From positions 3,720,001-3,784,000 of the forward strand of contig NZ_CP059901.1 in the NCBI RefSeq assembly GCF_014127285.1: DNA of 64,000 nucleotides, given 5' to 3'. The position numbers and the translations under genes were made by a program. Shown piece after piece: positions 14,495 through 56,494 of this stretch (within the stretch, counting starts at the first letter, position 1; each line of letters begins with the position of its first letter). Source of the DNA: Mumia sp. ZJ1417 (lineage in GTDB: Bacteria; Actinomycetota; Actinomycetes; Propionibacteriales; Nocardioidaceae). The notes beneath the pieces are model-generated. The model was not told the origin of the DNA, made no database searches, and saw only the letters and a list, made by a program, of their open reading frames with translations.

Positions 14495-16804
14495 CTAGGC
14501 GCCCATCACGGCGGGGATCGTCGCGGTCCACGTCTCGCGCAGCTCGGAGATTGGCACCGTGAACTGTCCCTCGACGGACAGTGCCTCGCCGCCGGTGGTC
14601 CCGATCTGTGCGACCGGCACCCCGTACGAGCCGGCGAGCGCTGTGAATGCGTCCACACGCTCGGGCGACACGGTGACCAGCGCCCGCGCCGTCGACTCGG
14701 AGAAGAGCCCGACGAACGCGTCGCCGTCGAGCGCGACCGTGGCGCCGACGCCGTTGCGGATCGCTGCCTCGGCGAGCGCGATCGCGAGCCCGCCGTCCGA
14801 CAGGTCGTGCGCGGCCGTGGCCAGGCCCTGCTTGGCGACGTCGACCATCAGGTCGGCCAGCGCCTTCTCTGCAGCCAGATCGACCTGCGGCGGAAGGCCG
14901 CCGAGGTGGTCGTGGGCGACCTGCGACCACGCCGATCCGTCGAGCTCGTCGCGGGTAGTCCCGAGGACGAGCACGGCGTCGCCCTCGGAGGAGAACCCCT
15001 GCTTGATGCGCTTGGTGACGTCCTCGACCACGCCCAGGACGCCGACCACGGGCGTGGGGAGGATCGCCGTCTCGCCGGTCTGGTTGTAGAACGACACGTT
15101 GCCGCCCGTGACCGGGATGCCGAGCACCTCGCACGCGTCCTTCAGCCCCGACGTGGCGCGCTCGAACTGCCACATGACCGCCGGGTCCTCGGGCGAGCCG
15201 AAGTTGAGGCAGTCCGTGACGGCCAGCGGCAGCCCGCCGGAGACACCGACGTTGCGGTACGACTCAGCGAGCGCGAGCTGCGCGCCGGCGTACGGGTCGA
15301 GCTTGGCGAACCGTCCGTTGCAGTCGGTCGAGACAGCCACACCGAGGTTGGTCTCGTCGTCGATCCGGATGACACCGGCGTCCTCGGGCTGCGCGAGCAC
15401 GGTGTTGCCGCGGACGTACCGGTCGTACTGGTCGGTGACCCACGACTTGTCGGCCTGGTTGGGCGAACCGAGCACCCTCAGCACCGTCGTACGGAGCTCG
15501 TCGCCGGTCGTCGGCCGCGCAAGGGACGCGGTCGTGTCAGCCTGCAGCGCGTCCTGCCAGTCGGGGCGCGCGTAGGGGCGGTGGTAGGTCGGTCCGTCGT
15601 GCGCGACCGACCGCGGCGGCACGTCCACGACGGTCTCGCCGTGCCAGTCGATGACCAGGCGACCGGTCTCCGTGACCTCGCCGACCACGGTCGCCTCGAC
15701 GTCCCACTTGCGGCAGATGTCCATGAACGCGTCGAGGTGCTGCGGCTCGACCACGGCCATCATGCGCTCCTGCGACTCGCTCATGAGGATCTCCTCCGGC
15801 GAGAGCGTCGAGTCGCGAAGCGGCACGGTGTCGAGCTCGACGTGCATGCCGCCGTCGCCCGCGCTGGCCAGCTCGCTCGTCGCGCACGACAGCCCGGCAC
15901 CGCCGAGATCCTGGATGCCTGCGACGACGCCGGCGTCGAACAGCTCGAGCGTGCACTCGATGAGGAGCTTCTCCATGAACGGGTCACCGACCTGGACGCT
16001 CGGGCGCTTCGCGGGACCGCCGCTGGTCGAGCCTGTCGAGGCCTCGAAGGTCTCCGACGCGAGCACCGAGACTCCGCCGATGCCGTCGCCGCCGGTGCGT
16101 GCCCCGTACAGGACGACCTTGTTGCCCTCGCCCGAGGCATGGGCGGTGTGGAGCTGCTCGTGGCGCAGGACGCCGACGCAGAGCGCGTTGACGAGCGGGT
16201 TGCCGAGATAGGTCTCGTCAAACACGACCTCGCCCCCGATGTTGGGCAGGCCGAGGCAGTTGCCGTAGCCGCCGACGCCCGCGACGATGCCGGGCATCAC
16301 GCGCTTGGTGTCCGGGGCGTCGAGCGGGCCGAAGCGCAGCGGGTCCATCACGGCGACCGGGCGTGCGCCCATCGCGAGGATGTCGCGGACGATGCCGCCG
16401 ACGCCGGTCGCCGCACCCTGGTACGGCTCGACGTAGCTCGGGTGATTGTGCGACTCAACCTTGAAGGTGACCGCATAGCCCTGGCCGACGTCGATCACGC
16501 CAGCGTTCTCGCCGATGCCCGCCAGCGTCTTGCCCAGCGGCGTCTCCTGCGACAGCTCGCCGAACTTCTTGAGGTGGACCTTGCTCGACTTGTAGGAGCA
16601 GTGCTCGCTCCACATCACCGAGTACATCGCGAGCTCGGCACCGGTCGGGCGGCGACCGAGGATCTCGAGGATCTGCTCGTACTCGTCGGGCTTGAGTCCC
16701 AGCTCGGCCCACGGCAGCTCCCGGTCAGGAGTGGCGGCGGCATGCTCGACGGTGTCGAGGCGGGTCTGGGGAGTCGGTGCGGTGGCGGCAGGCGCGTCGG
16801 TCAC
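14495..16804 (-). CDS. purL: Phosphoribosylformylglycinamidine synthase subunit II
   Basis: PurL converts FGAR to FGAM in purine synthesis, with ammonia supplied by PurQ and assembly by PurS. The 769-residue length is the small PurL type that needs PurQ and PurS, both encoded at 25-26 kb. Motifs include [14 protein letters not shown] near residue 70, [21 protein letters not shown] with substrate- and Mg-binding residues, and [12 protein letters not shown]. Between ETFE and [15 protein letters not shown] there is an extra Ser/Thr/Gly-rich segment at about residues 255-262, encoded by a copy of the dispersed repeat found elsewhere in the window. The start is GTG. Confidence 0.95.
16021..16042 (-). 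repeat. Dispersed TCGACAGGCTCGACC-type repeat copy inside purL
   Basis: On the minus strand the sequence reads TCGACAGGCTCGACCAGCG preceded by GCC. It encodes the extra STGSTSG residues inside PurL. The same core occurs at 48571-48685 and, in tandem, at 55735-55806, with a diverged copy at 55088-55114. It sits in frame, so PurL stays open. Confidence 0.7.
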
Positions 16805-48570: not shown

Positions 48571-48685
48571 GGGTCTCGACAGAGCTCGACCGGCGGGAGG
48601 CGGGCTCGACCGGCGGGAGGCGGGCTCGACCGGCGGGAGGTCTCGACAGGCTCGACCGGCGCAGGCCAGTGCTCGACCAGCGGAG
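48571..48685. repeat. Intergenic array of the TCGACAGGCTCGACC-type repeat
   Basis: Between the divergent RNA methyltransferase and GDPD genes, the unit GCTCGACCGGCGGGAGGCGG (20 bp) occurs about three times in a row. It is preceded by GGGTCTCGACAGA and followed by TCTCGACAGGCTCGACCGG and GCTCGACCAGCGG. The motif is the same as in purL and the beta-glucosidase gene. Confidence 0.75.
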
Positions 48686-55049: not shown

Positions 55050-55066
55050 ACGCCCAGTATGTGCCC

Positions 55067-56494
55067 ATGACCGGAGCAGAGGCCAGGGTTTCGACGAGCT
55101 CAACCGGCGAGACCGGTGACTTCTGGTGGGGCGCCGCGACCGCGTCGTACCAGGTCGAGGGCGCCGTGGACGAGGACGGACGAGGCCCCAGCATCTGGGA
55201 CACCTTCAGCGCCGAGGCCGGTCGGATCGCGGACGGCTCGTCGGGCGCGGTCGCCTGCGACTCGTACCACCGGTGGCGCGAGGACCTCGACCTGCTCAGC
55301 GGTCTCGGCGCGAACGCCTACCGGTTTTCGATCGCCTGGCCCCGCGTCCAGCCGACCGGATCCGGCCAGGTCAACGCCGCGGGGCTGGCGTACTACGACC
55401 GCCTCGTCGACGGCCTGCTCGCACGCGGCATCGCGCCGTTCGCCACCCTCTTCCACTGGGACCTCCCGCAGCCGCTGCAGGACGCCGGCGGGTGGATGGT
55501 GCGCGACACGGCGCAGCGGTTCGCCGAGTACGCGGCCGTGATCGCGGAGGCGCTCGGTGACCGGGTGGCTGCCTGGGGAACGCTCAACGAGCCGTTCGTG
55601 CACATGGCGCTGGGCTATGCGTTCGGCAGTCACGCGCCGGGCGAGACGCTGCTGCTCGACGCGTTCGCCGCGGGGCACCACCAGCTGCTCGGGCACGGGC
55701 TTGCGACGCAGGCGTTGCGGGCGGGGTCTCGACAGGGCTCGACCGGCGGATGGGGCTCGACCGGCGGATGGGGCTCGACCGGCGGACAGGGCTCGACCGG
55801 CTCACCGCCGGTGATGCTGGTGAACAACCTGACCCCCGTACGCGCCGCGTCGCCGTCGACGGAGGATGCCGCCGCGGCGGCGGTGTACGACGCGTTCCAC
55901 AACCGGATGTTCCTCGACACCGTGCTGCGGGGTACCTATCCCGACGAGCTCGCCGACGCAGCCGAGAGGGTCGTGCACGACGGCGACCTCGCGACCATCG
56001 CGCAACCGCTCGACCTGCTCGGCGTGAACTACTACAACCCCACGCTCGTGAGAGCGCCCGGCCCGGACAACCCGCTGCCGTTCGAGCTCGTGCCGATCGA
56101 GGGCTATCCGCTGACCGGCTTCGGGTGGCCGGTGGTGCCCGAGGGCCTGACCGACCTCCTGACCGGACTACGCCAGACGTATGGCGAGGCGCTGCCGCCG
56201 GTAGTGGTCACCGAGAACGGATGCTCCTACCCCGACGAGCCCGGGCCCGACGGCACGGTCGACGACGCGGCACGGATCGCGTACCTCGACAGCCACATCG
56301 CGGCGGTCGGCGCCGCCCGTGAGGCAGGTGTCGACGTGCGCGGCTACCTGGCATGGTCGCTGCTCGACAACTTCGAGTGGGCAGAGGGCTACACGCAGCG
56401 CTTCGGGATCACGCGCGTCGACTTCGCGACGGGCGAGCGCACCCCGAAGGCCTCGTACGAGTGGTTCCGCGAGCGGATCGCCCGAGGCTGGTGA
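55067..56494 (+). CDS. GH1 beta-glucosidase with a repeat-encoded insertion
   Basis: The 475-residue enzyme is a glycoside hydrolase family 1 member: FWWGAATASYQVEGA near the N-terminus, acid/base Glu175 in TLNEPF, and nucleophile Glu383 in VTENGCSYPDEPG; YLAWSLLDNFEWAEGY closes the barrel. It cleaves beta-glucosides in the cytoplasm. Between RAGSRQ and SPPVMLVNN, residues about 223-246 consist of a tandem hexapeptide GSTGGW or GSTGGQ, encoded by an 18-bp repeat (55735-55806). Another copy near the start encodes STSSTGE. Normal GH1 enzymes lack these parts. A GTG at 55061 is an alternative start. Confidence 0.92.
   Translation: MTGAEARVSTSSTGETGDFWWGAATASYQVEGAVDEDGRGPSIWDTFSAEAGRIADGSSGAVACDSYHRWREDLDLLSGLGANAYRFSIAWPRVQPTGSGQVNAAGLAYYDRLVDGLLARGIAPFATLFHWDLPQPLQDAGGWMVRDTAQRFAEYAAVIAEALGDRVAAWGTLNEPFVHMALGYAFGSHAPGETLLLDAFAAGHHQLLGHGLATQALRAGSRQGSTGGWGSTGGWGSTGGQGSTGSPPVMLVNNLTPVRAASPSTEDAAAAAVYDAFHNRMFLDTVLRGTYPDELADAAERVVHDGDLATIAQPLDLLGVNYYNPTLVRAPGPDNPLPFELVPIEGYPLTGFGWPVVPEGLTDLLTGLRQTYGEALPPVVVTENGCSYPDEPGPDGTVDDAARIAYLDSHIAAVGAAREAGVDVRGYLAWSLLDNFEWAEGYTQRFGITRVDFATGERTPKASYEWFRERIARGW
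55088..55114 (+). repeat. Diverged copy of the TCGACAGGCTCGACC-type repeat in the beta-glucosidase 5' end
   Basis: GTTTCGACGAGCTCAACC followed by GGCGAGACC resembles the repeat core with a few changes. It encodes VSTSSTGE just before the conserved GH1 start FWWGAATASYQ. Confidence 0.5.
55735..55806 (+). repeat. Four tandem 18-bp repeats inside the beta-glucosidase gene
   Basis: The unit GGGCTCGACCGGCGGATG is repeated perfectly twice, then a third copy ends in ACA and a fourth in GGCTCACC-type sequence. It is preceded by GGTCTCGACA, the repeat's left part. The array is in frame and encodes GSTGGW hexapeptides. Confidence 0.85.

Follow-up and report, generated by a model that had tools for sequence, protein, structure and literature searches.

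An in-frame tandem array in a Mumia beta-glucosidase gene as a probable insertion of a dispersed REP-like element

We have analyzed a tandem repeat array that lies in frame within a GH1 beta-glucosidase gene of the actinobacterium Mumia sp. ZJ1417 (genome G000). The window is a stretch of 64,000 nucleotides, positions 3,720,001-3,784,000 of the single 4.19-Mb contig of this genome. With a probability that we put at about 90%, the array arose when a dispersed REP-like element inserted in frame and then grew in tandem within a disordered loop of the enzyme. The repeat belongs to a dispersed family, its site is empty in congeners, the reading frame has been kept, and the loop is predicted to be disordered. 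The largest cluster of copies in the genome encloses a gene for a small GIY-YIG nuclease, the most likely partner of the element; the verdict on the GH1 array is independent of how this nuclease is read. One genome of this species was compared with five congeners, G001-G005. In an unrooted tree G000 pairs with G003, and G002 with G005. The features discussed are collected in Table 1.

Table 1. Positions of the features discussed; plain numbers are window positions
Feature	Position	Strand	Remarks
Element copy in purL	16020-16043	-	18 bp longer than in G002-G005; AIRS domains of PurL
Intergenic array	48572-48683	+	period of 20 bp, not divisible by 3; left end as in the GH1 array
GH1 beta-glucosidase gene, host of the insertion	55061-56494	+	477 aa; ORF, PF00232, E177/E385 invariant
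Second element copy, GGTTTCGACGAGCTCAACC	55087-55105	+	T type, 1 base off the commonest form; near the GH1 gene start
Left end of the complete first element, GGTCTCGACA	55725-55734	+	identical to the left end of the 69 exact C-type genome copies
Tandem array from the right half of the element	55735-55801	+	18-bp units, 3.7 copies, coding GSTGGW/GSTGGQ; TRF, codon phase
Largest cluster, 20 copies	L181:2501-3463 (G000:C1:3338662-3339624)		5 minus and 15 plus copies
GIY-YIG nuclease gene	L181:2650-2931	-	94 aa; between 5 inverted and 15 direct copies

The array in the GH1 gene and its empty sites in relatives

TRF reports the array with a period of 18 and 95% matches, and its score of 120 is the highest of the 31 rows obtained for the window. 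The core CTCGACCGG recurs at 55738, 55756, 55774 and 55792, sharing a single codon phase of the ORF, and the encoded peptide reads GSTGGW GSTGGW GSTGGQ, then GSTGS. The product of the host ORF matches PF00232 with an E value of 2.9e-139, and its residues E177 and E385, which we take to be the catalytic glutamates, are invariant in 37 sequences. The initial annotation, made from the letters alone, thus placed an 18-bp in-frame array in a beta-glucosidase correctly; its four hexapeptide units are, more exactly, three full units and a partial fourth (GSTGS). The left end of the element is found in the first unit only, and the later units repeat the right half. Allowing at most one mismatch, GCTCGACCGGCGG has 11 matches in the window, as against a mean of 1.73 and a largest value of 5 in shuffled sequences. 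The core is indeed common to the repeats in purL and in the intergenic array, as had been proposed. The shared left end was confirmed exactly for the intergenic array (from 48572), while the purL copy, GGCCTCGACA, is one base off. A further copy of the element, GGTTTCGACGAGCTCAACC, overlooked in the earlier reading, lies at the beginning of the GH1 gene itself.

An AlphaFold2 model of the GH1 product has a mean pLDDT of 89.7. Counting stretches of at least 3 residues, pLDDT falls below 50 only at residues 1-19 and 226-246, and both of these stretches coincide with repeat copies. Residues 226-246 lie between helix 198-227 and strand 251-256. The check for a surface loop by alignment and model that had been suggested earlier thus points to a loop predicted to be disordered, and by the usual layout of such barrels it would lie on the face away from E177 and E385.

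GH1 orthologues in the five congeners are 71-87% identical to the window protein within the matched stretches. In all five the match stops at residue 222-223 and restarts at 245-248, and their DNA holds no array at this site; in G002 the empty site reads GGGTTCTCCCGGG. A further 36 relatives, drawn from 80 loci, were aligned, and every one of them has 4-7 residues at the array site as compared with 29 in the window gene. An identical array in distant relatives, named beforehand as a finding that would speak against a variable insertion, is consequently absent from 5 of 5 congeners and 36 of 36 other relatives. The G005 gene carries an independent array of the 24-bp type at its N-terminus, derived from the G005 genome's own repeat and coding STSEEEG-type units; it sits where the window gene has its second element copy. 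Both this array and the intergenic array of the window are built like the GH1 array.

The dispersed element and its copies within genes

Exact 19-mer searches of the genome returned 69 copies of GGTCTCGACANGCTCGACC (C type) and 82 of GGTTTCGACRNGCTCAACC (T type), 151 in all, and reversed-sequence controls for both 19-mers returned none in the same genome. Together with 7 core-only matches there are 158 copies in 77 clusters. The element is short, dispersed and present in high copy number, and is thus REP-like in the broad sense. Mirror positions distinguish the two subfamilies, C going with G and T with A. The outer arms covary (GGTC/GACC or GGTT/AACC), and by subtraction 0 of 144 copies are mixed, because the 144 copies of the combined pattern equal the sum of the two matched classes. 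Hairpin stability was discarded as evidence, since single copies fold no better than shuffles, unlike a strong hairpin. GTAG is absent from the listed 24-mers of both subfamilies, and the element of this genome has no CGTC end.

Among 149 genomes sampled from the family, 69 carry the 19-mer. The congeners G001 to G005 have 17, 1, 1, 0 and 0 copies respectively, and other genera have up to 114. The exact 24-mer was not found in viral contigs. A literature search with the letters of the element core gave, among the matches listed, primers, constructs and studies that are unrelated by title.

Several features of the copies were noted in passing. The clusters lie nearer the origin of replication, 55 of 77 falling in the origin-proximal half (p 2e-4). 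With an assumed position of the terminus, C-type copies favour one replication orientation, 34 leading, 14 lagging and 3 mixed, and T-type copies show no such preference, 15 leading, 13 lagging and 5 mixed; a replication polarity that was striking in 40 core matches shrank once all copies were counted. At L147:2501-2735 (G000:C1:478924-479158) nine copies form a 27-bp array directly after a predicted start codon, coding a repeated GFDRLNQRL. The matched stretch at G000:C1:3786261-3786303 holds CCCTTCGACAGGCTCAG, presumably a common repeat of other bacteria.

Genes were predicted with a codon-usage gene finder written for this analysis, which called 93.7% of 415 kb coding. By these predictions 43 of the 77 clusters are wholly in genes, 24 are between genes and 10 are partly in genes; the in-gene clusters are fewer than random placement would give, yet amount to more than half. 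Same-strand spacings are multiples of 3 in 28 of 28 cases in predicted genes versus 13 of 40 elsewhere (Fisher p 3e-9), a test with some circularity, given that only open frames can be called coding. The use of the six frames, counted by cluster and frame, is uneven (chi-square p 4e-8): PVEPVET 20, VSTGSTG 17, SRQARPA 6, LDRLDR 5, and 1 and 0 for the remaining two. Pfam families were assigned to ten hosts: carboxyl transferase, UvrD-type helicase, prolyl oligopeptidase, TRCF (Mfd), FAD-NAD(P)-binding protein, urocanase, DUF6351, flavin monooxygenase, 2-oxoacid dehydrogenase acyltransferase and molybdopterin oxidoreductase. A 'PepN' label for one host was ruled out, the Pfam match being DUF6351. 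The purL product, with its AIRS domains, is 6 residues shorter in G002-G005. In-frame insertion into unrelated genes is accordingly seen, and relatives have empty sites, 5 of 5 congeners for GH1 and 4 of 5 for purL.

Twelve host segments were compared with the congeners, one or two of which gave no usable match for 4 of the 12. For six hosts (the helicase, Mfd, the FAD-NAD protein, DUF6351, the flavin monooxygenase and the molybdopterin oxidoreductase) at least one congener has, by eye, a different repeat-derived segment at the same loop. Either such loops tolerate insertion and have been hit more than once, or old insertions have been overwritten.

For the GH1 gene we propose that a REP-like element inserted in frame in the loop before strand 251-256 of the barrel, and that its right half then multiplied in tandem in 18-bp steps, perhaps by slippage or unequal copying; selection may remove those insertions that cause a frameshift or disrupt the fold. 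Of the interpretation offered in the initial annotation, the in-frame repeats, the common core and the loop have stood, and a merely slippage-prone tract has given way to the insertion of a dispersed element. A tract that arose in place by slippage of native sequence, with no incoming element, could draw on some chance likeness between the empty G002 site and the left end of the element, but we regard this as very unlikely: the unit together with the left end matches a family with 151 exact copies elsewhere, and a second element copy stands at the start of the same gene. That the array serves as an adaptive linker or a length switch of the enzyme would suit its frame, its richness in Gly, Ser and Thr and its place within a loop. 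This is improbable in our view, for the same peptides occur in many unrelated proteins, which argues for a tolerated insertion, and the loop, judged by its position between helix and strand and by what is known of the fold, would face away from the catalytic side. An assembly error, with the repeat collapsed or expanded, is scarcely credible even for a single assembly considered without its reads, since an array of 67 bp fits within one read, the frame is kept, and comparable arrays occur in other genes and in G005.

A GIY-YIG nuclease gene between inverted repeats

The product of the nuclease gene in the largest cluster matches PF01541 with an E value of 4.2e-19. It has the same domain and size as the UPF0213 GIY-YIG proteins (PDB 1zg2, BH0048; 1ywl, EF2693), and 1zg2 aligns with its residues 3-78 (E 3.5e-17). 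Residues G12, Y15, G17, R25, H29 and E62 are invariant in 13 repeat-associated GIY-YIG sequences, and include the Tyr, Arg and Glu expected of such a nuclease. The neighbours, named from their translations, are guaA and an oxidoreductase gene, 'choD'. G003 also carries a GIY-YIG gene at this locus, 74% identical and enclosed by inverted arrays of the G003 repeat, GGTCTCGATACG...TACTCGACCAGC; two more copies of GGTCTCGATACG were found in about 70 kb of other G003 stretches. The guaA-choD junction is without a GIY-YIG gene in G004 (about 30 bp) and G005 (about 60 bp), and that of G005 holds a ACCAGCGG stretch resembling the right end of the element. The gap in G002 is occupied by a 913-aa ORF (L276:17040-19781), GH3-like by reading, and contains no GIY-YIG match; the locus was not found in 80 kb of G001. 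There are 89 pattern matches in G005 to its own version of the repeat, of which overlapping ones may be counted twice. A nuclease gene was therefore expected elsewhere in that genome and 16 repeat-cluster stretches were examined; one of them holds a 64% identical GIY-YIG gene between inverted arrays of the G005 repeat. A Nocardioides MAG picked for its GH1 gene has a 62% identical GIY-YIG gene in the same arrangement with its own repeat. No GIY-YIG gene was present in 40 repeat-centred stretches of other genera and 4 of G001, 44 gene-free stretches that would count for little if each genome has one nuclease gene. No relative of the nuclease was found in viral contigs.

The association between the gene and inverted copies of the genome's own repeat was scored at 25 GIY-YIG loci over flanks of 450 bp, a score of at least 45 being called strong. 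The loci of G000 and L062 prompted the idea of a pairing and are not tests of it. Plasmid loci comprise 10 of 26 matches, plus one from another search, and a further 10 of 35 records were picked for genus spread before the flanks were seen, with Rhizobium taken twice. Thirteen of the 25 loci, in two phyla, have strong inverted flanks: in Mumia G000 (151), G003 (87) and G005 (186), and further Methylobacterium bullatum (70), M. aquaticum (103), Novosphingobium (58), Sinorhizobium (49), S. meliloti (47), Azospirillum (84), Neorhizobium (63), Rhizobium CIAT894 (127), Shinella (164) and Sphingobium (55). S. meliloti and Sinorhizobium K101 are not independent, because their proteins are 98% identical. 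The other 12 loci score below 45. L062 reaches 35, whereas the highest value in 100 shuffles of it is 30; two loci, in Planktothrix (35) and Spirosoma (34), count as borderline; and the remaining nine lie at 17-22 (two Sphingomonas, Radiobacillus, two Cupriavidus, Subdoligranulum, Acetoanaerobium, Rhizobium K1/93 and Photobacterium). Whereas the repeat-flanked genes have inverted flanks, GIY-YIG genes next to nrdR, between rnc and era, and before rsmI (L251, L252, L293) have none, with a score of 20. Among random intervals, 5 of 1500 reached 45 with GIY-YIG neighbourhoods left in, and 0 of 3500 with them excluded; in repeat-centred stretches the counts were 0 of 600 for G005 and 0 of 630 for G000.

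Some of the flanking repeats are themselves dispersed. The Neorhizobium repeat occurs at 333 places in 131 plasmid records, 34 of them in one Shinella record, the Azospirillum repeat at 75 places in 21 plasmid records, and the M. aquaticum repeat in 9 copies in 50 kb; for M. bullatum, Novosphingobium and Sinorhizobium, copies were seen at the gene only, within 50 kb. By eye, the Azospirillum and Neorhizobium repeats fit the published description of CGTC REPs (CGTC, a stem of 8-9 bp starting AT, a loop of 4-5 and a CCA tail); in the S. meliloti flank a CGTC repeat is not evident. On plasmid AZO_p3 of Azospirillum lipoferum (L302:886-1179) the GIY-YIG gene with its CGTC-like repeats lies between sufB and sufC, within the suf row. 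In the parts of Di Nocera et al. (2013, PMC3733652) drawn on here, CGTC REPs are reported without a dedicated transposase, and Azospirillum lipoferum and Sinorhizobium meliloti are on the list of species carrying them. The G000 element is not CGTC-ended, unlike the repeats flanking the Azospirillum and Neorhizobium genes.

The arrangement resembles that of REP-RAYT pairs (REPtrons), in which an enzyme gene likewise stands between inverted copies of the dispersed repeat of its genome. It differs in the enzyme, here a GIY-YIG nuclease (PF01541) and not a Y1 tyrosine transposase. To regard the element as an ordinary REP, mobilised by a RAYT that has been lost or acts from elsewhere, would fit a known system in which, according to the same parts of PMC3733652, REPtrons can be lost. 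We consider this quite improbable. PF01797 has no match in this genome, as against 5 of 14 control genomes, and is present in only 2 of 149 family genomes, both with zero 19-mer copies; no RAYT flanked by this repeat was seen in any relative among those 149, and the element lacks a GTAG end. A more serious contender, though still unlikely, is that the GIY-YIG gene is a passenger, homing into or trapped by repeat arrays which spread by other means. REPs are, from the portion of PMC1525189 consulted, known insertion targets of some IS elements, and copy number does not simply track the gene, G003 having the gene but few (1) G000-type copies. Against a passenger, the gene of each congener has on either side the repeat version of the species concerned, and in Pseudomonadota members of this nuclease family that are unrelated to one another are flanked by repeats that are likewise unrelated. 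By analogy with RAYTs and GTAG REPs, the simplest account would pair such elements with small GIY-YIG nucleases. We lean slightly towards the view that the nuclease cuts the ends of the element and would so drive its copying. Evenly balanced, in our judgment, is the wider proposition that a large REP-like class in at least two phyla, CGTC REPs included, has small GIY-YIG nucleases as its dedicated enzymes, each nuclease co-evolving with its flanking version of the repeat and driving copying into intergenic sites and in-frame protein loops, the GH1 array being one product.

In searches of open-access journal papers, no paper was found joining GIY-YIG with 'repetitive extragenic palindromic'. 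Matches for GIY-YIG with 'miniature inverted-repeat' were, by title, on eukaryotes or tools, and broader GIY-YIG and repeat searches showed no such pairing among the matches listed. A term search of RepRanger 2025 (PMC12306157) gave neither 'nuclease' nor 'GIY'.

Implications

Copies within genes have precedents in intragenic REPs and the Rickettsia RPEs, which, as described in the parts of PMC3733652 used here, are also short in-frame repeats in many unrelated genes, including DNA repair genes, and some are clustered; there, too, different REPs occupy about the same recB site in two Xanthomonas species. The G000 element differs in belonging to another phylum, in having neither a GTAG nor a CGTC end, and in forming in-frame tandem arrays of half elements. 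It also differs in that 43 of 77 loci are wholly in predicted genes, whereas most REPs are intergenic according to the same source. One repeat family thus supplies dozens of predicted proteins in a single actinobacterium with flexible peptide segments, and sister species have other repeats at the same loops. For the enzyme of the CGTC REPs, small GIY-YIG genes with inverted repeats on either side are a named candidate that can be tested.
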